DNA from: a virus
Virus record (IMG/VR): IMGVR_UViG_3300020448_000046
Coordinates: 1-22,448 of that record
Length of the DNA: 22,448 nucleotides
Reading direction: 5' to 3' (one strand)
Shown here: piece after piece, positions 4,897 through 22,448 of the stretch
How the letters are laid out: each line of letters starts with the position of its first letter
Numbering within the stretch: the first letter of the stretch is position 1
Made by a program: the position numbers and the translations under genes
The notes under the pieces: model-generated
Told to the model about the DNA's origin: nothing
Databases searched by the model: none
The model's input: only the letters and a program-made list of their open reading frames with translations

Positions 4897-5724
4897 GTGT
4901 TTTAGTGGTTCTCCACCAGCAATTTCCTCCAATGTCCATTCTGTATGTGCTATGTCATTAAGCCATTGTGTTCTGTCAGGACGTAAAGGATCATTGATGG
5001 TATCATAATTTGGATTGCCTACTTCATAGGCTAAACTTGCTTGGCTTACAAATACAGGCACACCATTGATTACTGAATGTGTAGCAGGGTTACTGCTATG
5101 GTTGATTACTGCATAAGCACCATTACAACTGAAGTCAAAGTCATCATATGTGTCTTGTACTTGCACAGGATTTTGTCTATAAACATTTTTAAAATCCTCT
5201 TCCAAGTTGGTAACAGGAAATCTTGGGTGAGGTCTCCAAATTATATCTCTGTCTGTGTGTTCTCTTATTTTTCTAATTTGTTCACTTACCCAACTTGACA
5301 TACTTGGATTGTTACGCCATTGATGTGAACGTTCGTGTTGCCCTACTATAACTATGCTGTCTCCGTTGTTGTCCCAAGGTTTCAGTTCAAGTCCTAATTG
5401 TTTAGCTCTTGAGTTGTCATTCCCTTTTGGACCAAAGTATGCTTCTCGATTGATTCCACCAACACCCACTTTCCAAGTGGTGCCACGTATCAATCCACCG
5501 ACTTCTAGTACAATTATTTTTTTATTGTGTGCATGGAAATCGTCCCATACTTTTTTGTTAGGAGCCATTCTACCATTCCAAAGAACGCTCCAAATAACAC
5601 CAACGTCACAGTCGTAAGTATTATCAACGACCACATGACCATTACTGCTAAGACTATCAGCAAAGGCGTCAAATACTGGTTTGCTATTCTGTGCACCATA
5701 ATCTCTAAATAAACTAAACTTCAT
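4879..5724 (-). CDS. Polysaccharide glycosyltransferase-like protein (paralogue C)
   Basis: A 281-aa protein clearly related to the 311-aa product of 8425-9360. Both share LG-x-x-LKPW (residues 110-117 here), a helix ending in QIR-x-x-R/T before RPHP (164-167), a Ser-rich NHSSNP (208-213), and NGVPVFV (220-226). The RPHP then H/F-N-SS then GVP order recalls the C-terminal nucleotide-sugar-binding half of capsule polysaccharide enzymes of the KpsC/KpsS type. The N-terminal half looks like a Rossmann domain (residues 1-75). The expected role is transfer of a sugar to a glycan in the cytoplasm or at the inner membrane; donor and acceptor are unknown. ATG 5724 overlaps the glyA stop as ATGA and was preferred over an upstream TTG at 5766. 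Unlike the other two paralogues it lies after glyA, separated from them by three genes. Confidence 0.75.
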   Translation of the reverse strand: MKFSLFRDYGAQNSKPVFDAFADSLSSNGHVVVDNTYDCDVGVIWSVLWNGRMAPNKKVWDDFHAHNKKIIVLEVGGLIRGTTWKVGVGGINREAYFGPKGNDNSRAKQLGLELKPWDNNGDSIVIVGQHERSHQWRNNPSMSSWVSEQIRKIREHTDRDIIWRPHPRFPVTNLEEDFKNVYRQNPVQVQDTYDDFDFSCNGAYAVINHSSNPATHSVINGVPVFVSQASLAYEVGNPNYDTINDPLRPDRTQWLNDIAHTEWTLEEIAGGEPLKHLTSVL

Positions 5725-6860
5725 GATAGAAGGGTTACTATTTTCCCTGCAAGTCCTTCGAACCAAGCCTCGTTGTGACCTCTTGTTGTTTCAGCGGCTG
5801 TGCCTATTCTTATACCACTTGTCTCTACAAATGATCTTGGATCATTAGGTACCCCATTCTTGTTTACAGTTATGCCATTTTCTTCTAATAGATCAGCGGC
5901 TTCTTTACCTGACCATTTTGTGTCACTTAGATCTAATAGTAGTATATGACTATCGGTTCCGTCAGTTAATAATTTGTATCCACTTTCCTTAAACACCCTT
6001 GCCATTGCCTGTGCGTTAGCAACTACCTTGGCAGAATAATCTTTGAAATCATCAGTGTTTGCTTCGATGAATGCCTGTGCCTTTGCGGCAATAATATTCA
6101 TCAATGGTCCACCTTGTGTGCCTGGAAATATTGCACTATTAATTTTTTTTGTGTAGTCTGGATTGTTCCATAATATGATTCCGCCTCTCGGACCTCTCAA
6201 AGTTTTGTGTGTTGTACTCGTTACAAAGTCTGCGTAAGGCACTGGACTTGGATAGGCATTACCGGCAATCAATCCTGAATAGTGTGCCATGTCTACTAAC
6301 AAGTATGCACCTACCTTATCTGCTATATGTCTAAACATAGCAAAATCAATAGCTCTTGGATATGCACTTGCTCCTGCAATAATCATTTTAGGTCTTATCT
6401 CTTGTGCTTTTGCCATTACTTCTGGATAACTTAACCAACCGTTTTCATCAACACCATAATGATGTGCTTCATATACTTTGCCTGATATGTTGACAGGAGC
6501 ACCATGGCTTAAATGTCCTCCACTTGCTAGATCCATGCCTAGAATTTTATCTCCTGGTTTTAAAAAAGCAAGATAAATTGCTGTGTTGGCATTTGCTCCA
6601 CAATGTGGTTGCACGTTTGCAAATTCACAGCCGTATAATTCTTTCAGTTGATCTATTGCAAGTTGTTCAATGCTGTCCATGTGTTCACAACCATTGTAAT
6701 ATCTTTTGCCTGGATATCCTTCAGCATACTTGTTTGTAAACACAGAACCGGCTAGTTTCATTACATCTTGTGATGCAAAGTTTTCACTTGCAATTAATTC
6801 TATAGTAGACGTTTGCCTGTCTACTTCTTTATCTAATATTTCAAAAACTCTTTTATCCAT
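5721..6860 (-). CDS. glyA: Serine hydroxymethyltransferase
   Basis: A 379-aa PLP-dependent enzyme that interconverts serine and glycine with transfer of a one-carbon unit to tetrahydrofolate. The N-terminal IELIASENFAS (residues 20-30) and YPGKRYYNGCE (49-59) are family signatures. D190 and H193 in LVDMAHYSG contact the cofactor, and K219 in TSTTHKTLRGPRGG is the Schiff-base lysine. R352 or so in SGIRIGTAAETTRG binds the substrate carboxylate. Bacterial GlyA is about 415-420 aa; this protein ends soon after that motif, so about 25-30 C-terminal residues are missing, and the usual GTPA is GTAA. All catalytic residues appear intact. A good SD (AAGGAT) precedes ATG 6860. In a phage it may supply methylene-THF for thymidylate synthesis, or glycine. 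It sits inside a glycan gene island, where its presence is unexpected. Confidence 0.95.
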   Translation of the reverse strand: MDKRVFEILDKEVDRQTSTIELIASENFASQDVMKLAGSVFTNKYAEGYPGKRYYNGCEHMDSIEQLAIDQLKELYGCEFANVQPHCGANANTAIYLAFLKPGDKILGMDLASGGHLSHGAPVNISGKVYEAHHYGVDENGWLSYPEVMAKAQEIRPKMIIAGASAYPRAIDFAMFRHIADKVGAYLLVDMAHYSGLIAGNAYPSPVPYADFVTSTTHKTLRGPRGGIILWNNPDYTKKINSAIFPGTQGGPLMNIIAAKAQAFIEANTDDFKDYSAKVVANAQAMARVFKESGYKLLTDGTDSHILLLDLSDTKWSGKEAADLLEENGITVNKNGVPNDPRSFVETSGIRIGTAAETTRGHNEAWFEGLAGKIVTLLS

Positions 6861-11315: not shown

Positions 11316-11993
11316 CTATTGGTCCTTCCTAATATAAACCGAAGTTTCGTCAATAATACTTATGTTCACACTTGGTCCAAGAACCTCATGAAAGGCTTGT
11401 TTGCTACCTTGCCATGAATGATAGTCATCCAAAACCATATAGCCTCCTGGCACTACTCTTGGCCATAATACTTGTAATTCTTTTAATGTAGACTCATACC
11501 AATCTGTATCAAGTCTTAAAAATGCAATTTTGTTTGGTATATTGGTTGTATCATTTAGTGTGTTACAAACGTCACCTTTAATAAAATTTATTTTAGCGGG
11601 TGGCATTGAAAATTTGTATAAGTTTTGTTCTACTTCTTCTATTTCAGCTCTACACCATTGTGCATTTCCCCATTTAGCTTTGGGACTGTCTTTTGCATAA
11701 CCTATTGTGCCATCTTTGTTTATTTTGTAATCTGCATCTGTTGGTTGCGTCATTCCTCCAAATGTATCATATAACCAAAAGTTTCTATTGGTATTTGTGT
11801 TTGCCAACCAAGACACAATGATTTGTCCGCCCTTCCAAACTCCACATTCTACTATATCACCTTGTATGTTTTGTTTGTCTAATTCTTTAACGGTATAAAA
11901 TGTGTGTGCAAGTCTAGTGCCACTTGTCATGCTGTATTCAGATGCCTGATCAACTGCACTTTTACAATTTTGATAGGTTTGCCAAGATTTCAT
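11316..11993 (-). CDS. TylF/macrocin O-methyltransferase family protein
   Basis: A 225-aa SAM-dependent methyltransferase. DIVECGVWKGG (residues 46-56) is the family's motif I. LYDTFGGMTQPTDAD (74-88) carries the SAM ribose-binding acid, and RLDTDWYEST (160-169) plus VVPGGYMVLDDY (180-191) supply the metal-binding acidic residues seen in TylF-like enzymes. These proteins methylate hydroxyl groups of sugars in antibiotics and surface glycans. The likely substrate here is a sugar made or transferred by the neighbouring enzymes. The start ATG 11993 overlaps the upstream stop as TAATG; the SD is weak (AGAAAG), so coupling is likely. Family assignment is firm; the substrate is inference. Confidence 0.9.
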   Translation of the reverse strand: MKSWQTYQNCKSAVDQASEYSMTSGTRLAHTFYTVKELDKQNIQGDIVECGVWKGGQIIVSWLANTNTNRNFWLYDTFGGMTQPTDADYKINKDGTIGYAKDSPKAKWGNAQWCRAEIEEVEQNLYKFSMPPAKINFIKGDVCNTLNDTTNIPNKIAFLRLDTDWYESTLKELQVLWPRVVPGGYMVLDDYHSWQGSKQAFHEVLGPSVNISIIDETSVYIRKDQ

Positions 11994-12751
11994 TATTTTC
12001 TTTCTATGTCAGCTTCAGTACATTCTTCTCCATACTGTACTTCAAGTATGTGACAAGGTTCATCAGTGTCATTTATACCTTGATGCCAAACTTCTTTGCC
12101 TATGTCATAACCATGTGTTAGAGCTTTTAAGGTAACAGTTTGTAGTCCAGCTTTGCCATCAGTCAGTACATCACAACTGCCTTTCAAAACGTACCAATGT
12201 TCTGAACGTTTGAAATGACGTTGCATACTTAATTTAGACTTTGGACTTATAACTAATTCTTTAACCTTGTATCCAGGCTTGTCATCTAACACTCTGTACC
12301 AACCCCAGTTGCGTTTTGTCTTTGGATGTTTGTATTCTTCTAATATCCAACTGCTTGAATTTTGTTTATGACTTCCTCCAACACCAAATACAAATTCTAC
12401 TTTGTCTGACCAAAGTTTCATTTCAGGTATGTTGTTTTGTGTTCTATCACCGCCATTTGCAAATACTATATCACAGTTGTAGCCTGAGGTTGCCATTAAT
12501 TTAAAGATTGCACCAGAGGCAGAATCATCATTGTCTTCCCATGTAAGAACATCATCTACCATTTTTAAATTACGGATTATTTCTACACGTTCTTTGATTG
12601 GCATGAAAGGTTTACCTTTCTTACGTGTGAGCCATTCGTCACTATTGAGCCCGACGACTAATTTGTCGCCGAGCTTTTTTGCTTCTTTGAAATAAGAAAT
12701 GTGTCCTGAATGTAAAGGATCAAATCCACCTGTAACTAATACAACTTTCAT
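11993..12751 (-). CDS. RfaE/TagD-like nucleotidyltransferase fused to a ManC-type cupin
   Basis: A 252-aa two-domain protein. Residues 1-140 form a cytidylyltransferase-like fold: TGGFDPLHSGH (7-17) has the nucleotide-binding HxGH (H14, H17), and FANGGDR (97-103) matches the GGD region of HldE/RfaE. Residues 149-252 match the cupin of type II mannose-6-phosphate isomerase/ManC: NWGWYRVLDD, QRHFKRSEHWYVLKG with H179, E184 and H185, and H223 in VWHQG as metal ligands, ending in ILEVQYGEECTEADIER. The N-terminal domain should activate a sugar phosphate or polyol phosphate with CTP or ATP. The cupin may isomerise or bind the sugar. ATG 12751 lacks an SD but has TTAAATA five bases upstream. Confidence 0.85.
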   Translation of the reverse strand: MKVVLVTGGFDPLHSGHISYFKEAKKLGDKLVVGLNSDEWLTRKKGKPFMPIKERVEIIRNLKMVDDVLTWEDNDDSASGAIFKLMATSGYNCDIVFANGGDRTQNNIPEMKLWSDKVEFVFGVGGSHKQNSSSWILEEYKHPKTKRNWGWYRVLDDKPGYKVKELVISPKSKLSMQRHFKRSEHWYVLKGSCDVLTDGKAGLQTVTLKALTHGYDIGKEVWHQGINDTDEPCHILEVQYGEECTEADIERK

Positions 12752-12767
12752 AGTTGTATTTAAGTGT

Positions 12768-13412
12768 CTATCTATTTTCTGCTTCGATGAATTGAGCTAT
12801 TGTTTCTGGGTCAGACACTTCGTATGGATCATTGTCTTCATCTTTGTGATTGAATCCTGGTTCCACGTAGGCTTCCATTATGATATTATTCTTAATGTAG
12901 CAACTGTATCTCCATGATCTCATTGCAAATCCTTTGCCTCTTTTTGAACAAAGCATACCCATTGAGTCAGTAAAATCTCCATTACCGTCTGCTAACATTT
13001 TAACTTTTTCAATACCTAATGATTCGGCCCAAGCATTCATTACGAATCCATCATTTACAGATACGCAATAAATCTCATCAATGCCAGCATTTTTTAATCT
13101 ATCATACATTTCTTCATATGCAGGTAGCATCTTTGATGAACACACAGGAGTGAATGCTCCTGGTAAACTGAAAAGAATTACGTTTTTGTCCTTAAATAAA
13201 TCTAGTGAATTTTGTTTTACAAACTCACCTGCAATTCTCTGTACAAAGTCAGCTGAAGGAATCATATCCCATTTTTGTAACCTTTGTCTTTCGCCAGGTA
13301 ATGATGTCCGTTCAAAGTGGTCAATAGTAGGTCGAACGTTACCTCCATATTGACGTGTTACATTTTCACTTGCCTGTTGTTCCCAAGCAGGCTTGGTTTC
13401 GCTTAACTTCAT
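12768..13412 (-). CDS. Peroxiredoxin (Prx5-like)
   Basis: A 214-aa protein whose residues about 60-214 match Prx5-type thiol peroxidases. The peroxidatic cysteine is C91 in LPGAFTPVCSSKMLPAYEE (the family's PGAFTP-x-C). KRGKGFAMRSWRYSCYI (158-173) and YVEPG...DPYEVSDPETI near the end are also typical. Other cysteines are C116, C155 and C171, any of which might resolve the sulfenate. The first 60 residues are an extension not found in the core family and contain no signal peptide. The enzyme would reduce peroxides in the cytoplasm. It opens the accessory island directly after the UvsY-like gene, with its own SD (AAAGGAAAA) before ATG 13412. The family call is firm; the benefit to the phage is inference. 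Confidence 0.93.
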   Translation of the reverse strand: MKLSETKPAWEQQASENVTRQYGGNVRPTIDHFERTSLPGERQRLQKWDMIPSADFVQRIAGEFVKQNSLDLFKDKNVILFSLPGAFTPVCSSKMLPAYEEMYDRLKNAGIDEIYCVSVNDGFVMNAWAESLGIEKVKMLADGNGDFTDSMGMLCSKRGKGFAMRSWRYSCYIKNNIIMEAYVEPGFNHKDEDNDPYEVSDPETIAQFIEAENR

Positions 13413-15244: not shown

Positions 15245-16219
15245 TTAGTTTCCTTGGCGGTTTCTAATCATTGCGAGAATATCTTCTGCCTTGTTATTAT
15301 CCGCTTTTGGTTCCGCTGGTGCTTCTGCTGGTGCAGATGTCTGTGCTACTGCCTCAACCTTTGGTGCTTCTGCCTTTGGGGCTTCAGCTTTTGGAGTTGG
15401 AGTACTTGCCTTTACAGGATCACCTGTTCTTGCACTTACGCCTGCTGGTCTAAAGTATTGACCAAAAGACTCCATGTCATATGCTTCACCATCAACAGAT
15501 GATTCAAACATTTTTTTGATAACACCTACTTCAACTTCGCTAGGCTTCTTAGGCAAATAATCTTTAAGATTGAATAAGCCATTAGTTTCAATTGCCTTGT
15601 ACTCAGTTTCATCTAATGGACGTTCTCTTCTTGCCCATGTTGATGTAGAGTAATCAGCATATCCACCTTTAGATGCTTTAGTTAACCTAAAGTCAACACC
15701 TTGCGTATAGTCTGTTGGAAGTTCGTTCATATCAGGATCCATTAATGCTCCCTTAATAATTTGGAAAATTTGTGGACCAATAATAAAACGTCTAATTGGA
15801 TTTTCTGGAGTTGAATCCTCTTTTAAAGGATTGTCTGTAACAAATCCTTGGAAAACATATGAACGTTTTTTCCAATACTTACGTCCCATATCTTCTAAAG
15901 ATTTATCTTTAAACCATCCACGTACTTCTGAAAGTACTGGACAAGTTTCACCATACATTTCCATACAAGGAACTTGCACTTGTACAGGACGTGAATCAGT
16001 ATCACCTTTGATTCCTGCAAATGGAAGTTTGATTAGTAATCTTTCTTGCCAGAAAAATGTATTGGAGTCGTCACCATCTGGAAGGAAACGCAGAGTTGCA
16101 GTTTCGCCTTCTTTAATATTCCAAAATGGGTAAATTGCGTTGTCGCCGCCACCAGTATTACCGCTTGAGCGGGTTTCCTGTTCTTTAAGTTTTGCTCGAA
16201 TTTCAGCCAATGTAGCCAT
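15245..16219 (-). CDS. 32: Single-stranded DNA-binding protein gp32
   Basis: A 324-aa T4 gp32-like protein. The core includes FWNIKEGETATLRFLPDGD (residues 32-50), WQERLLIKLPF (57-67), VPCMEMYGETCPVL (83-96) and the aromatic/basic stretch WKKRSYVFQGF, typical of the ssDNA-binding OB domain. From residue 273 an Ala/Pro/Lys/Glu-rich linker leads to a short C-terminal peptide (AEDILAMIRNRQGN). T4 gp32 binds zinc through His64, Cys77, Cys87 and Cys90; here only C85 and C93 exist and the whole protein has no histidine, so that site cannot form. It coats ssDNA during replication and recombination. A perfect AGGAGG SD, its own promoter and a structured leader precede it. Confidence 0.93.
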   Translation of the reverse strand: MATLAEIRAKLKEQETRSSGNTGGGDNAIYPFWNIKEGETATLRFLPDGDDSNTFFWQERLLIKLPFAGIKGDTDSRPVQVQVPCMEMYGETCPVLSEVRGWFKDKSLEDMGRKYWKKRSYVFQGFVTDNPLKEDSTPENPIRRFIIGPQIFQIIKGALMDPDMNELPTDYTQGVDFRLTKASKGGYADYSTSTWARRERPLDETEYKAIETNGLFNLKDYLPKKPSEVEVGVIKKMFESSVDGEAYDMESFGQYFRPAGVSARTGDPVKASTPTPKAEAPKAEAPKVEAVAQTSAPAEAPAEPKADNNKAEDILAMIRNRQGN

Positions 16220-16346: not shown

Positions 16347-18794
16347 TTAAACGCCTGCTAGTTGTTTAATTCTTTCCATCTCGCGATCCTTACCGCCCTG
16401 TAATCTGTCGATCATTTTCTGTGCAACTGGAATTGCCTTGTCGCCAAATTCTTTTTCACAAGCTGTAATTACCGCTGTTTCGCCTTTTGGAAATTTGTTA
16501 GTTGTGTAATCATAATATGATTTGACTAGTTCTTCTAACTTCTCTCCAGGTGATCTGCCGTCGTCTTTTGCCTTTTCAATGCTACCGTCCGGATTCATTT
16601 TAACATCAATTGTGTCATCATCTTCCGCTTTTGGATTAGCATCAGCAAATGATTTAAGTTCATCTACTGCATCTGCGAAAGTACATTCCTTGTCAACCAA
16701 GCAACCTTGTTTAACTGTTTTACTTCCCCAAACCAAATCTGCATCATCAAAATACACTTTTGTTCTGTCCACGTTTGCCGCTTTGGCAAGGTGATCAGCT
16801 AATGTAGTTTGTTTCATTTTATCATTAAGGTCAACCATTTTATCAGTTGGCTCAGGCATACTTATCATTGCACCATACTGATCAAATTTTGCCTTTTGAT
16901 CGCCTTCGACTTCGTCTTCTTTGAATCCTTTTAATTTAGCTTCTTTTTCAAGTTCGTGTTTTCTACGTACGATTTCTTTTTTGAGTTTTTCATCTCCGGC
17001 TGTGTTTGGATCCATTTGAAGATCCTGTATGGCTTTTCTTTTAGCCTCATAATCTTCTTTGTCTTTGATGTTTTCCATCTTCAAATCACCAGTGTCAATT
17101 TTTGACATAATTGCTGGTGCCTTTGCTTTGATATATTTCATTATCAATGGTCTTACACACTGATCAGAATCTTTTGCTCCAACTTTCTTAAACATATCAA
17201 GTAGCATCGGGTCATCTATGATACCCTTTAAACTTTGAACAGCATTGGTGCCGTTTATACCAGCTGGGAAATGCTGTGCCGTCAAGCCATTTAGTTTTTT
17301 AATCGCGGCTTCCTGGTCTTTGCCTTTGCCGTTAACTAAAGCATCTTCTGTTTCTCCTACTACCATGCTCATTGCAGATTCAAAATCTTCTTCTGGACTG
17401 TATGCTTCTTCTACTGCATAGCCTTCTTTGTCTAATGCATCTGCTACTTCATCACGTGGTGACATTGTATGAATAATGATTCCGCCTTGTCTCATCTCGT
17501 CTGGCTCACATTTACATTTGATACCAGCCTTGGCACAAGCATATTCCATCTCTTCACAATCTTTATCAGAGATGCCTCTGTCCTCATCATAATCACCATC
17601 GATGTAAAATTTATGTGCGTGTGGTTCCATGCTACCTTCGGGACCACTTGCTTCATCTTGTATAAGTTCCATTTGATGTTTTTGTAATTCTTCAATTGAA
17701 TCAAAAGGACCACCTGTCTGTTTTCCGTTTCTAAATGAATAAAACTTTCCGCCTTTGTTTACTGCGGCAAGTCCATATTTGTTCATGCCCATATCAGAAA
17801 CTTCGTCCACGTTCTCCGGTCCGACTTCTTTGATTTTATTTTTTTCTTTTACTAATCTATTGATGTATGGAAATACTGATTTAAGTTCTTCATTGAAAGT
17901 TCTAATTGTTAATTCATCGATCCAACTGTTTTGTAAATCTTCTGGTACTTCTTCCATCACTACTGGAGCAAAGTCTTTGATAGTTTCTGCATAGTAGTTT
18001 GGTCTTTGTAATTTCATTACTTCTGTTTTAATTGAATCAATTCTTTCATTAACCATGTCCATGTAGCCTTTAAGGCCTTCTGCCATCACTGCCGATCTGT
18101 TAATGTAAGTTTTGAATTGTTTTAACTTGCCAAGCTCTTCGCTGAGTGATACGATATGCTTACCAAAGTCATCATACAAGTTTCCACCGTTGCTTACGTG
18201 TTGTGCCAATGCTCTTGCACCATTAAGGTGTCTCATTGGATACTTGTATCTTTCACCATTTTCTGATTCTATATAAATTGCTTCTACGTGTTGTGTTCTT
18301 GCACCAGGAACTTCTTGGTTGACAGGTTGTCTGTGTTTTAATACTAACCTTGCCTTGTCTATGTCTTCGTAACTTGTTCTACTAGTGCCGTACATTTTTG
18401 TTTCACTCATTTGTTTTTCTCCGGCAGTTTTTGTTAGATGTGCATAATCTCTTTTATCAAGATTGGACTTGTTTATATCTCTTGTGTCAAAGTTTAACAT
18501 ATTTCTTTTTGCAAAGTTTCTTATTTCCTTTAAAAAGTTATACCAATCAGACTTGATTCCATCTGGTTGTTCTGCAATAAAGTTTGTGTTGTACACCACA
18601 GCAACCTCTTTTTCTGTAAGTGTAATACTGACTCTACCAAGTATATCTTCTCCTACGATATAGTCAAAATCAAAGTAACGCCCTGTTTTTGGATCGTCAG
18701 TGACTTCACCTGCTTCGTTACCAATGGTAACAGCGGGAAATCTTCCCCTGATCTTTGCAAATAACTGATCTGATATGTTGTCCATATTGCTCAT
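16347..18794 (-). CDS. Large conserved protein of unknown function, 815 aa
   Basis: A long, charged, soluble protein without recognised catalytic motifs. The N-terminal quarter has VAVVYNTNFIAEQPDGIKSDWYNFLKEIRNFAKRN (residues about 68-102) followed by a DTRDI-x-KSNL segment, a block I associate with large proteins next to gp17 in marine T4-like phages. Residues about 390-460 form a separate part with HAHKFYIDGDYDED, then four cysteines in the DCEEMEYACAKAGIKCKCEP region, then MSPRDEV. The C-terminal 300 residues are Lys/Glu/Asp-rich and helical, with possible coiled coil near LKKEIVRRKHELEKEAKLKG. It follows gp17 from its own late promoter, so a head, scaffold or packaging role is reasonable but unproven. 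The start is ATG 18794, just after the promoter. Confidence 0.85.
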   Translation of the reverse strand: MSNMDNISDQLFAKIRGRFPAVTIGNEAGEVTDDPKTGRYFDFDYIVGEDILGRVSITLTEKEVAVVYNTNFIAEQPDGIKSDWYNFLKEIRNFAKRNMLNFDTRDINKSNLDKRDYAHLTKTAGEKQMSETKMYGTSRTSYEDIDKARLVLKHRQPVNQEVPGARTQHVEAIYIESENGERYKYPMRHLNGARALAQHVSNGGNLYDDFGKHIVSLSEELGKLKQFKTYINRSAVMAEGLKGYMDMVNERIDSIKTEVMKLQRPNYYAETIKDFAPVVMEEVPEDLQNSWIDELTIRTFNEELKSVFPYINRLVKEKNKIKEVGPENVDEVSDMGMNKYGLAAVNKGGKFYSFRNGKQTGGPFDSIEELQKHQMELIQDEASGPEGSMEPHAHKFYIDGDYDEDRGISDKDCEEMEYACAKAGIKCKCEPDEMRQGGIIIHTMSPRDEVADALDKEGYAVEEAYSPEEDFESAMSMVVGETEDALVNGKGKDQEAAIKKLNGLTAQHFPAGINGTNAVQSLKGIIDDPMLLDMFKKVGAKDSDQCVRPLIMKYIKAKAPAIMSKIDTGDLKMENIKDKEDYEAKRKAIQDLQMDPNTAGDEKLKKEIVRRKHELEKEAKLKGFKEDEVEGDQKAKFDQYGAMISMPEPTDKMVDLNDKMKQTTLADHLAKAANVDRTKVYFDDADLVWGSKTVKQGCLVDKECTFADAVDELKSFADANPKAEDDDTIDVKMNPDGSIEKAKDDGRSPGEKLEELVKSYYDYTTNKFPKGETAVITACEKEFGDKAIPVAQKMIDRLQGGKDREMERIKQLAGV

Positions 18795-18799
18795 ATTAA

Positions 18800-18807
18800 T
18801 ATTTATC
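18800..18807 (-). promoter_or_regulatory. T4-type late promoter at the 815-aa gene
   Basis: GATAAATA on the minus strand, fitting the T4 late consensus TATAAATA except at the first base. The gp17 stop codon TAA lies inside it. Five bases (TTAAT) separate it from the ATG at 18794, and ATAAATATTAATATG is identical to the gp17 start region. The transcript should begin at or next to the ATG. Confidence 0.75.
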
Positions 18808-20392
18808 TAACATTAGTAGAAACGAAGATGGGCATGGGCGGGGTCATATCGTCCTCTGTATCTGCTTGATTGAAGGTTTCATACACCCTAGGATCCCAAT
18901 CTTTCAACACAGCCATGATACGCATACTCAGTAAACAAGCACTAACTAGGTCATCTGTTTCACCAGGTTTTGCTTTGTAGCTACTGCCACTTGCAACAAA
19001 AGCCTTTAGTTCACTTACAAGTATTTTGCTGTTTACTTTTAGTCTATCAGTTTCTATCATATTTTTTAATCTTGTACAGGCACTGATTTTTGTGCTGTGT
19101 GTAGTATTGAAACCTTTTCTAAATTTACGCACTCTTCCTTTTCTAATTGGTTCTGATACACACATTCCTGGAATATTTTCTTCGCCCATATCTCTAATCA
19201 CAATCAAAGCACCTTCTCCAATTGAATTATTTTCAACAGACCAATAAATGTTTTGACCATCATTTTGGCATTCTTCTTTGATGTAATTACAAATGTCTTT
19301 GAGTATTCTTATTTGTGATGGTATAGGAGTAGTGTTGTGTCTCCATTCTGCTATTTGTTTGTAACTAGGTAATTCAAATACTTGTATCGCCGCATAATCA
19401 CCACCAGTACCCATTGATGGATCAAGTGCAATTACGTATGTGTTGTCTGCTTTAGGTTTACCATACCAACGTGTTTGTCCCATGTTCCAACTTGGGTCTA
19501 TGCCTTCAATGGTTGACAGCTTTATACTGTTGATTAAAGTTTCATCATAAACTAAAAATTCACAACCATACTCACGTCTAAATCTTTCTTCACCTATTCT
19601 GCCTACTTCTGTCTTAGCCCACTCTTCATCTCTATCAGGATGTTCGTCCCATTTTGCAGTAAAGCCATGAAATCCATTTTGACCAATTATACTTTCATTA
19701 CCATCTTCATCAAATTTATTTTGCGATTCTTTCCATATGATAGCAAATGTGTCTTCATCACTGTTAGGTGTTGATGTAATAATTGCACGACCACCTGTTG
19801 CTAGTGTTGGTGATATCGAAGTCCAAAATTCATCTGCTATACTTGGATTCACGAACGCAAACTCATCACAATATAATAAAGAAATAGACATACCCCTACC
19901 AGTATTTCCAGTAGTTGTAGCACTAACAATCCTACTTCCATTTTCAAACTCCATTGAACCTTTGTTATAATTTGTTACTCCTGCTCTGATATGATCAGGA
20001 CACAATTCATAACCGTATCTTATACGTTGCATTATTTCTTGAGCACCTGTATATTTGTGTGCGGCAATTAGTATTGTTTGATCTGCATGAAACATGGCGT
20101 ACCATAATAGATAAGCCGCGGCAGTTGTTGTCTTGCCACTTTGTCTTGGCAACATATTAATATTAAATCTATGATTGTGATAACTTTTTAATAATCTTTT
20201 TTGATATGAGAAAGGACCAAACAAAGTTTTTCCTTGAACAGGATGTTGTATGTTGAAAAATTTTTCACAAAAATACAAATAACCCGTGTCTGGATCTAAA
20301 CATTTTTTAAGATCTTCAACAGCCTCTTCGTTAAATTTTTCTTTTAGGTGTGCCTTTTTGGTAAGTACACCATCTAAACTTTTTGTTGCCAT
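18803..20392 (-). CDS. 17: Large terminase subunit gp17
   Basis: A 529-aa packaging ATPase and nuclease (T4 gp17 is 610 aa). Walker A is LPRQSGKTT (residues 81-89), Walker B LLYCDEF with catalytic D176-E177, and the coupling motif is TSTPN. In the C-terminal RNase-H-like nuclease domain the acidic triad is visible as D324 (IALDPSMGTGGDY), E387 (WSVENN) and D480/D481 (GETDDLVSA). The motor binds the prohead portal, pumps DNA and cuts the concatemer, together with gp16 encoded upstream. I chose ATG 20392, because the alternative TTG at 20410 lies upstream of a late promoter and would start transcription-wise in the wrong place. There is no SD; the transcript from the promoter should be leaderless. 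Confidence 0.97.
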   Translation of the reverse strand: MATKSLDGVLTKKAHLKEKFNEEAVEDLKKCLDPDTGYLYFCEKFFNIQHPVQGKTLFGPFSYQKRLLKSYHNHRFNINMLPRQSGKTTTAAAYLLWYAMFHADQTILIAAHKYTGAQEIMQRIRYGYELCPDHIRAGVTNYNKGSMEFENGSRIVSATTTGNTGRGMSISLLYCDEFAFVNPSIADEFWTSISPTLATGGRAIITSTPNSDEDTFAIIWKESQNKFDEDGNESIIGQNGFHGFTAKWDEHPDRDEEWAKTEVGRIGEERFRREYGCEFLVYDETLINSIKLSTIEGIDPSWNMGQTRWYGKPKADNTYVIALDPSMGTGGDYAAIQVFELPSYKQIAEWRHNTTPIPSQIRILKDICNYIKEECQNDGQNIYWSVENNSIGEGALIVIRDMGEENIPGMCVSEPIRKGRVRKFRKGFNTTHSTKISACTRLKNMIETDRLKVNSKILVSELKAFVASGSSYKAKPGETDDLVSACLLSMRIMAVLKDWDPRVYETFNQADTEDDMTPPMPIFVSTNVR

Positions 20393-20397
20393 ATTAA

Positions 20398-20405
20398 TAT
20401 TTATA
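20398..20405 (-). promoter_or_regulatory. T4-type late promoter of gene 17
   Basis: A perfect TATAAATA on the minus strand, five bases (TTAAT) before the gp17 ATG. In T4, late transcripts begin about six bases after this box, which would be the A of ATG here. The box lies a few bases after the T-run of the terminator for the preceding gene. Confidence 0.85.
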
Positions 20406-20408
20406 GAC

Positions 20409-20434
20409 AAAAATAGGCTCCGAAGAGCCTATTT
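20409..20434 (-). terminator. Rho-independent terminator with C(UUCG)G loop
   Basis: On the minus strand AAATAGGCTC, loop TTCG, then GAGCCTATTT: a perfect 10-bp stem closed by a C-G pair around UUCG and running into TTTTT. It follows the 117-aa gene stop (20464) by 30 bases and precedes the gp17 late promoter. Read in the other direction the stem is followed by GAATG, so it is directional for minus-strand transcripts. Confidence 0.9.
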
Positions 20435-20830: not shown

Positions 20831-21451
20831 TTAACCGCAATTACTTGCGTATAGTTTTTCAAACTTTGCATCATCAACGTCATACTCAGCAGTAATTCTT
20901 TTCTTCATTTCTTCTTTTGTACAACCGTTGGCGTCAAGTCTTTTCATTTCGCCTACGCAACTTGATTCATCTTTTTTCTTGTCGCTCATCATTGACTCTA
21001 ATTTAGCTCTAAGTTCAGACTTGATTTCATCTTCAAGTGCCATTGGATTATCTCCGCCTGCAACTTTAGGATAAGTTTTCTTTTGTCTGTTTAATCCACC
21101 TGCTAAATCATTTTGCATATAAGCTGTGTCTTGATATTTCTCGTCTGGTGAATTATCCCACTCGCCTTCTTTTGCTTCTGTGTCTTCACATCCACCTGCA
21201 CGTAATTTAATGTCATCCATGTCCATGTCTTTTGGTGCTGGTGGCATATCCATTACTTTAATGCTTTTTTCAATTTCGTCTCTTGGTGACATTTTCGGCA
21301 TTGGTGGAATTATTTCTGGTTTGCCACCTGCGTCTTTCACCATCTTCATTAATGTTGCAACATCATCAGCAGTTTCACCTGACATCGAAATGCTCATGTT
21401 TACGCTTTCATTTAATGAATCTATTTTTTTATAAATGTCTTTTAAGTTCAT
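20831..21451 (-). CDS. Conserved acidic protein of unknown function, 206 aa
   Basis: A 206-aa protein of low sequence complexity. Residues 17-41 (NMSISMSGETADDVATLMKMVKDAG) form a strand-helix unit. Next comes a Met/Pro-rich linker, then YQDTAYMQNDLAGGLNRQKKTYPKVAGGDNPM (about 106-137), and a helical C-terminus with four cysteines in the last 120 residues. The SGETADDVATL-type unit and the YQDT...GLNRQK segment recall proteins of marine T4-like phages encoded around the packaging and head genes. Function is unknown. MSPRDE here (residues 54-59) recurs in the 815-aa protein encoded two genes later. The start ATG 21451 overlaps the upstream stop (TAATG) and has GGGAG before it. Confidence 0.8.
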   Translation of the reverse strand: MNLKDIYKKIDSLNESVNMSISMSGETADDVATLMKMVKDAGGKPEIIPPMPKMSPRDEIEKSIKVMDMPPAPKDMDMDDIKLRAGGCEDTEAKEGEWDNSPDEKYQDTAYMQNDLAGGLNRQKKTYPKVAGGDNPMALEDEIKSELRAKLESMMSDKKKDESSCVGEMKRLDANGCTKEEMKKRITAEYDVDDAKFEKLYASNCG

Positions 21452-22017
21452 TATTTACTCCCTATTGGACTTTTAGTTGATATCTCGCCCATATCGTGTT
21501 TTTGTTCAGCATCTGGTTTAGTTGATTGTCCTGGATCGTTCTCTCTTTCTTTTTGAACGCTTTCTAGTTCTTTCAATAAATCCATAACACGATTGTCGCC
21601 TACCTTCTTTTGTGCATCTGGATCAGCTGATTCCATCTCACTACCAAGTTTAGGTGTGTAAACTTTGTCATACTCTTTATCCTGGTATTCTTCTTGTGGA
21701 GCTTCAGCATCTCTCAAACAAATGTATGCAGGATCTATTCCTGACACTTGTGAAATGTATTCGCCTAACACTTGAGCGGTAGTAGGGTATGATAATTCTG
21801 CTTCAAAATAAGTTGTCTCAACATTTTGTAATTTAGGAAAATCTAATGGACGTTCTTGAATTGGAGTTTTCTTACCTGGTGTCATGTTGATCAAGCCAAA
21901 CTTTTGCAAACAAGATTCGCAACTATCAATAAAACCTTCTGGTAATTCTCCTGCTACCCCAAACTTAAACTTATAAGTTTTTTTAGCTTCTGTTAGATAT
22001 TCTACAAATGTTTTCAT
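21451..22017 (-). CDS. Conserved phage protein, possible prohead-associated
   Basis: A 188-aa protein with an N-terminal MKTFVEYLTEA that resembles the amino ends of T4-type head precursors: T4 gp23 is cut by the prohead protease after FLTE, and here YLTE precedes A11. A compact alpha/beta domain follows to about residue 110 (YKFKFGVAGELPEGF ... YFEAELSYPTTAQVLGEYI). The C-terminal 70 residues are polar and disordered-looking, with VMDLLKELESVQKERENDPG as a conserved-looking helix. Function is not known. It lies between gp16 and gp17, so roles in packaging or head assembly are plausible. The start ATG 22017 has AAGGAAG upstream and follows a late promoter at the gp16 stop. Confidence 0.8.
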   Translation of the reverse strand: MKTFVEYLTEAKKTYKFKFGVAGELPEGFIDSCESCLQKFGLINMTPGKKTPIQERPLDFPKLQNVETTYFEAELSYPTTAQVLGEYISQVSGIDPAYICLRDAEAPQEEYQDKEYDKVYTPKLGSEMESADPDAQKKVGDNRVMDLLKELESVQKERENDPGQSTKPDAEQKHDMGEISTKSPIGSK

Positions 22018-22034
22018 TAGTCTTCCTTATATGT

Positions 22035-22448
22035 TTATTTATCCATGTTTTTCAATTTATCAAGAAGTGAGTTTCTATCAGTTACAACGTATCCTTCGCC
22101 ATTTACTATGGAATCTCCGTCTACACCGCCTTCTTTGTCCTGCTTTTCCTTCTTGAGTTGTAGCTCAACCATCTTTAATTTCTTATCCAATTTAGCTGTT
22201 TTGGCATCTAGGTTGGTCTTCAACATCTGTCCTGCTACTTCAAACACTCTACCACTATACCTGGATTCTACGTTCATGCCCAAATCCATTAGATCTTCAT
22301 ATGCAGTCATGGCCTTATCTGCTACTTCATTAAGTTCTTTATCAGCCATTTCACCTAAGCCCTTAACCTGTGGTAGTGCCGCCTGAATTTTATCTAATTC
22401 AGCTATTTCACGGAAGTCTTCTTTTTGATCAGTAACTGCTTGTTCCTT
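22035..22448 (-). CDS. 16: Small terminase subunit gp16-like, 5' end outside the window
   Basis: The reading frame is open from the right edge of the window for 137 codons. The internal ATG at 22349 is therefore probably not the start; 33 upstream in-frame codons (KEQAVTDQKEDFREIAELDK onward) look coding. The visible part is almost entirely helical and charged, with YEDLMDLGMNVESRYSGRVFEVAGQMLKTNL and a long helix KLDKKLKMVELQLKKEKQ, then a tail ending VTDRNSLLDKLKNMDK. T4 gp16 has a central helical oligomerisation domain with similar spacing (RHMEVFATLMGQM). gp16 normally precedes gp17, here with three small genes between. gp16 rings recognise DNA and regulate gp17. The assignment rests on position, helical character and memory of marine homologues. 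Confidence 0.7.
   Translation of the reverse strand, partial: KEQAVTDQKEDFREIAELDKIQAALPQVKGLGEMADKELNEVADKAMTAYEDLMDLGMNVESRYSGRVFEVAGQMLKTNLDAKTAKLDKKLKMVELQLKKEKQDKEGGVDGDSIVNGEGYVVTDRNSLLDKLKNMDK
22036..22043 (-). promoter_or_regulatory. Candidate T4-type late promoter after gp16
   Basis: GATAAATA on the minus strand, overlapping the last codons and TAA stop of the gp16 gene. Transcription would start about six bases later (near 22030), leaving a 12-13 base leader that contains the AAGGAAG site of the 188-aa gene. Because the same bases are coding, the match could be chance. Confidence 0.5.

Follow-up and report, generated by a model that had tools for sequence, protein, structure and literature searches.

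Two neighbouring genes in the stretch of viral DNA analysed here (22,448 nucleotides, hereafter the window) start with the same 15 bases on the minus strand, in which a T4-type late promoter motif runs through five further bases into the ATG. This raises the question of whether the promoter is fused to the start codon, which would give late mRNAs with practically no leader, or whether the motif stands there incidentally and the genes are translated in some other way. The element, ATAAATATTAATATG, is found at 18792-18806 and 20390-20404, with no other exact copy in the window, where 0.43 matches would be expected by chance with up to two mismatches tolerated. Both copies terminate in the ATG of a real gene, that of the large terminase subunit (TerL, gp17) and that of an 815-aa virion protein, at the two sites given in an earlier note on this DNA. 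The geometry given in that note (motif, five bases, ATG, no Shine-Dalgarno sequence) is also right at both sites, since no Shine-Dalgarno (SD) was found from the upstream terminator or stop codon to the ATG at either of them. An SD is clear for most other window genes, e.g. those with starts at 16219, 15186, 21451 and 22017. The relevant features are:

22036-22043, minus strand: late promoter GATAAATA of the other class, with the ATG at 22017 lying 18 nt downstream and an SD (AAGGA, 22024-22028) in between
21451-22017, minus strand: gene of a 188-aa virion structural protein (phrog_14802, head and packaging, 4e-6), the SD-leadered contrast case
20411-20434, minus strand: intrinsic terminator hairpin (10 bp stem, TTCG loop, T-rich tail) directly upstream of the TerL promoter
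20398-20405, minus strand: T4-type late promoter TATAAATA of TerL, its TAAATA kept in 77/77 readable relatives
20392, minus strand: predicted transcription start on the A that opens the TerL ATG (base 6 after TAAATA, following a pyrimidine), placed from T4-type geometry and from the high share of purines at that base
18803-20392, minus strand: TerL (T4 gp17-type large terminase), 529 aa, with predicted leaderless mRNA
18800-18807, minus strand: late promoter GATAAATA of the 815-aa gene, overlapping the TerL stop codon TAA
16347-18794, minus strand: gene of the 815-aa virion structural protein, with predicted leaderless mRNA from 18794
12757-12763, minus strand: variant late promoter TTAAATA with the 5-nt spacer CAACT before the ATG at 12751; relatives in other contigs have equal spacing
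11993-12751, minus strand: cytidylyltransferase-like/cupin gene (Pfam CTP_transf_like and MannoseP_isomer) without SD, third predicted leaderless gene of the window

Both promoter classes (5 nt without SD, 18 nt with SD) are present within this one window. The cytidylyltransferase/cupin family has a near promoter in 8 of its 14 members in the clade contigs, so that the leaderless class may extend to an accessory gene. Other genes of the window include a phage-encoded serine hydroxymethyltransferase (SHMT) and a peroxiredoxin-like gene (5721-6860 and 12768-13412), probable auxiliary metabolic genes. A sigma-70 promoter scan gave as many sites as shuffled sequence and was uninformative.

TerL matches the PHROG terminase large subunit (1.7e-125) and the Pfam families Terminase_6N/6C, while the 815-aa protein matches phrog_13484 (head and packaging, 2.1e-19) and has a PA5oct relative annotated as virion structural protein. 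The nearest cultured TerL sequences are those of PA5oct (Arenbergviridae) and its kin at about 53%, followed by Sinorhizobium phage Phosso and the 121Q/PBECO4 type. Judged from sequence comparison, the window phage is a member of the T4-superclade and not a cyanophage, its nearest cultured TerL belonging to Arenbergviridae/Asteriusvirus-type jumbo phages. Concerning the host, no TerL relatives were found in GTDB genomes and none was assigned; SHMT relatives are distant and spread over unrelated phyla, and tRNAs are nearly absent from the clade contigs, so neither points to a host.

Conservation was analysed in 80 IMG/VR loci related to the window. TAAATA followed by 5, 7 or 8 bases and ATG, without SD, precedes TerL in all 77 loci with a readable start; the split over these spacings (41/23/13) is slightly off, as one of the "8" spacers, ATGTATAG, belongs to a different nearby gene that also matched the search pattern, the TerL of that locus type having spacing 5. 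The gene after TerL shows TAAATA-N5-ATG with exactly five bases in 78 of 78 relatives, with ten different spacers. Proteins encoded at this position range from about 640 to 1000 aa and share a conserved N-terminal region. That an identical module is used twice, as the earlier note put it, stands for the two window sites; the exact identity is confined to the window contig and its nearest relatives. Elsewhere the spacers of the TerL and 815-aa sites differ and only TAAATA-N5-ATG (for TerL also N7 and N8) is kept. Since the full 15-mer is common to both sites in the nearest relatives only, the conserved unit is the motif with its spacing, and the 15-base module was rejected as a repeat unit. An exact 15-mer scan of IMG/VR was left out because chance occurrences of so AT-rich a word were expected to dominate. 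Chance itself, or wrongly placed start codons, could be proposed as the origin of the arrangement in AT-rich DNA, and ATAAATA as such is indeed no commoner in the window than expected (3 copies against 10); yet motif and spacing are conserved across some 80 loci while the flanks vary, and the comparative data contradict it. Wrong starts are further opposed by the next in-frame ATG of TerL, which lies well inside the conserved protein, and by the depositors' annotation of Pelagibacter phage HTVC008M (see below), which independently chose equal starts. Hence, this explanation is hardly credible.

A different account would be translational coupling, in which ribosomes finishing the upstream gene reinitiate at an ATG 8 to 25 nt further on and the promoter is incidental. 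It finds some footing at the 815-aa gene, where the TerL stop lies 8 nt upstream, but relatives differ in how far the ATG lies from the end of TerL, while the promoter always lies 5 nt from it. TerL itself is separated from the gene before it by the terminator and about 70 nt. This hairpin is well conserved by covariation: among 28 relatives 99.3% of the cells are paired, four pairs being changed on both sides (30 cells), and slid controls reach at most 62% pairing. With a covarying terminator directly before the gene, transcription of TerL very probably starts at a promoter of its own. In PA5oct the annotated TerL start lies inside a terminator-like hairpin (locus L242, 5956-6001), and a likelier ATG follows about 30 nt downstream (near 5983), likewise lacking both an SD and TAAATA. 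A point against leaderlessness is that in 24 of 78 relatives of the 815-aa gene four purines (e.g. AGGA) stand some 11 nt ahead of the ATG and could serve as a weak SD if the RNA were longer; the window copy has no such tetramer.

In order to see how promoters and start codons are arranged beyond this locus, seven large contigs of the clade were combined with the window (8 contigs, 708 kb), and a simple codon-usage script yielded 616 genes in 195 families. The distance from TAAATA to ATG is bimodal: 53 genes lie at 4-9 nt, only two at 10-13 and 97 at 14-35. The peak consists of 36 genes at exactly 5 nt and cannot stem from the choice of start codons, for which every in-frame ATG near the beginning of an ORF was admitted, so that a few single assignments may be wrong. 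Permuted hexamers give a mean of 1.4 genes at this distance, and after collapsing homologues 10 families remain at 5 nt against about 0.6 per background position (P ~1e-9). The SD follows the same division, being present in 3/53 genes at 4-9 nt and in 81/97 at 14-35 nt. Such a distribution has the look of two mRNA classes, one that would lack a leader and one whose leader would be long enough to hold an SD. Genes at spacings 5 and 8 mostly encode virion and packaging functions: TerL, the 815-aa protein, a tail-tube-like protein (phrog_13438), a 385-aa virion protein (phrog_11591), a baseplate wedge protein (phrog_261, phrog_43) and a virion protein (phrog_14467), besides the cytidylyltransferase-like gene. 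An upstream gene on the same strand lies within 30 nt for 24 of the 52 genes at 4-9 nt, as coupling would have it, but several genes at spacings 5 and 8 start divergently from their neighbour. Translational coupling is considered very improbable.

Where transcription would begin can be estimated from the leadered class, where base 6, counted from the end of TAAATA, is a purine in 85% of cases (81% for the stricter ATAAATA set), commonly preceded by T. Base 6 is also purine-rich in T4, Syn9, 121Q and Melnitz. The genes at distance 5 have a pyrimidine at base 5, directly before the ATG, in 35/35 cases. Taken together, and with the general geometry of T4 late promoters underlying the placement, the purine at base 6 and the pyrimidine before the ATG put the expected +1 on the A of the ATG in the 5-nt class. 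By the same base-6 rule, spacing 8 would leave a 3-nt leader (ACT, ACA, AGT, GTT). At spacing 7 the leader would again measure 3 nt if transcription began at base 5; a late promoter need not be tied to one start position. It should be noted that spacings 7 and 8 imply a few leader bases, so a strictly 5'-terminal AUG is not universal.

The fusion of motif and start codon recurs outside the clade. A search for motif-N5-ATG in other marine T4-like genomes, which the earlier note had proposed, finds it again in the window clade and in HTVC008M, a cultured Pelagibacter (SAR11) phage of the Kyanoviridae, where 12 genes show TAAATA-N5-ATG against a background of 0.75 per position (P ~3e-11). Many of them are virion genes, 10/12 lack an SD and the ATG starts (among them 7562, 18943, 19456, 31132 and 49760, and 18916 on the minus strand) are those annotated by the depositors. 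In the HTVC008M gp54 family ATAAATA-N5-ATG occurs in all relatives read, down to 41-55% amino-acid identity. HTVC008M also has two divergent genes (locus L247, 18392-19440), those of the DNA end protector and the head closure protein, whose starts are 26 bp apart and which carry TAAATA-N5-ATG each, so that both promoters lie within these 26 bp. Because both promoters of this divergent pair are of the N5 type, translational coupling is excluded there. HTVC008M belongs to a lineage distant from the window clade, and the module is found at different genes: it is carried by the end protector, the gp54-type tail tube cap and the baseplate, whereas TerL is without it. The HTVC008M pattern is thus an independent recurrence.

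Other T4-type phages show little of this. Comparing gene counts at distance 5 with those at 14-35 nt gives 0/26 in T4, 0/22 in Syn9, 0/35 in 121Q, 0/33 in AG-345-F15, 2/41 in PA5oct, 2/39 in P-SSM2 and 2/20 in Melnitz; relative to all genes, those at 5 nt are 0/133 in Syn9, 0/148 in AG-345-F15 and 2/230 in P-SSM2, whose two genes are isolated ones. The earlier expectation that leaderless late genes would be unusual among T4-type phages agrees with these counts. Only 6/39 of the 14-35 nt genes in P-SSM2 and 3/33 in AG-345-F15 have an SD, which suggests that late translation in these cyanophages may proceed from leaders without an SD. As cyanophage late leaders are long and often SD-less, absence of an SD alone is no proof of leaderlessness, and the mark of the leaderless class is spacing and SD absence together.

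These cyanophage leaders also lend some weight to an alternative in which longer RNAs, read through from upstream or initiated there, are translated without SD from an unstructured, AU-rich leader (ribosomal protein S1 type), TAAATA being mere leader sequence; the 5' flank is indeed AU-rich. Nevertheless, it predicts neither the exact spacing of 5, nor the gap at 10-13 nt, nor the SD in 81 of the 97 longer-spacing genes, permuted hexamers yield no such peak, and the conserved terminator cuts TerL off from upstream RNA. We consider it unlikely, although some read-through RNA could be translated as well.

The reading that we favour, with a probability of roughly 85%, is that T4-type late promoters fused to start codons would give leaderless mRNAs (0-3 nt) for part of the late regulon. 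The module would be a late promoter of the T4 type, NATAAATA, recognised by the host's RNA polymerase together with gp55, the late sigma factor of the phage, and RNA synthesis would begin at the sixth base after TAAATA, i.e. the A of the ATG, leaving a leader of 0 nt at spacing 5 and of about 3 nt at spacings 7-8. Translation of such an mRNA would do without SD pairing, with 70S ribosomes presumably binding its 5'-terminal AUG. The late regulon would comprise a leaderless class (TerL, the 815-aa virion protein, the tail-tube-like protein and others) and an SD-leadered class with leaders of about 9-30 nt. Spacing, lack of SD, conservation, bimodality, the purine at the predicted +1, the late sigma and HTVC008M all support the earlier leaderless prediction as a prediction. 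They make leaderless mRNAs that start on the A of the ATG a strong inference, whereas translation of these by 70S ribosomes is presumed.

Regarding the machinery, a late sigma of the gp55 type is encoded in the clade (contig G001, 78288-79139, phrog_12791 at 6e-78 and phrog_234 at 2.7e-22; also contig G004, 15249-16097); gp55 has no match in the 22 kb window, which is a fragment. Searches with HTVC008M gp33 and gp45 (tblastn) gave no match in the clade contigs, which are incomplete and from a distant lineage. Both gp55 and a putative gp33 are annotated in HTVC008M. No translation factor favouring leaderless mRNA was found. HTVC008M encodes ribosomal protein bS21 (91228-91431), with relatives in Melnitz and PA5oct; phage bS21 was considered as a cause of leaderless translation and is unsupported, as it was not detected in the clade contigs.

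On these results, the T4 late promoter class appears fused to start codons in marine phages that are uncultured, common and widespread, as well as in a SAR11 phage available in culture. A tentative, rather doubtful extension is that these two distant marine T4-type lineages split their late regulon into leaderless and SD-leadered parts so that a late change in the host initiation machinery could determine how much packaging, tube and baseplate protein is made relative to other virion proteins. If confirmed, leaderless translation would serve highly expressed virion genes outside Thermus, start codons in marine phage genomes could be corrected by a rule based on the module, and leaderless mRNA use in SAR11-type hosts could be tested with an existing isolate.

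Late transcription in T4 is a textbook case: its late promoters are read by RNA polymerase with gp55, gp33 and gp45, and the late mRNAs carry SD leaders. The clade resembles T4 in the octamer TATAAATA, the purine preference at base 6, a gp55 homologue and the late virion and packaging genes downstream. Unlike the clade, T4 has no TAAATA 4-8 nt from an ATG, its ATAAATA promoters lying at least 13 nt upstream, nearly all with an SD in between. In the open-licence literature no paper was found that combines "leaderless" with TATAAATA, nor any description of leaderless mRNAs from T4-type late promoters or of the HTVC008M feature; in a pelagiphage paper (PMC9004378) the word occurs solely in a reference title, that of a gene-prediction method. 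Late phage mRNAs without leaders have been described before, and it is their version with T4-type late promoters that was not found. Cyanophages S-PM2 and Syn9 have late promoters NATAAATA upstream of late genes (PMC2984593). The motif is shared by Syn9, AG-345-F15 and P-SSM2, but their promoters are almost never at 5 nt, the spacing being 14-35 nt and often without SD. As summarised in PMC3594737, Thermus phage phiYS40 has leaderless middle and late mRNAs (Sevostyanova 2007), and an extended -10 motif has been associated with its leaderless promoters (cited in PMC4842269). Leaderless late phage genes are thus common to phiYS40 and, as predicted, to the clade, but phiYS40 has a Thermus host and does not use the T4-type late octamer. 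Leaderless mRNAs are widely used in the phylum of Thermus, and in Deinococcus-Thermus leaderless mRNAs arise where a -10 element stands a few bases before the ORF (PMC12340547); there the genes are cellular and read by the housekeeping RpoD, whereas in the clade a viral late sigma would do so.
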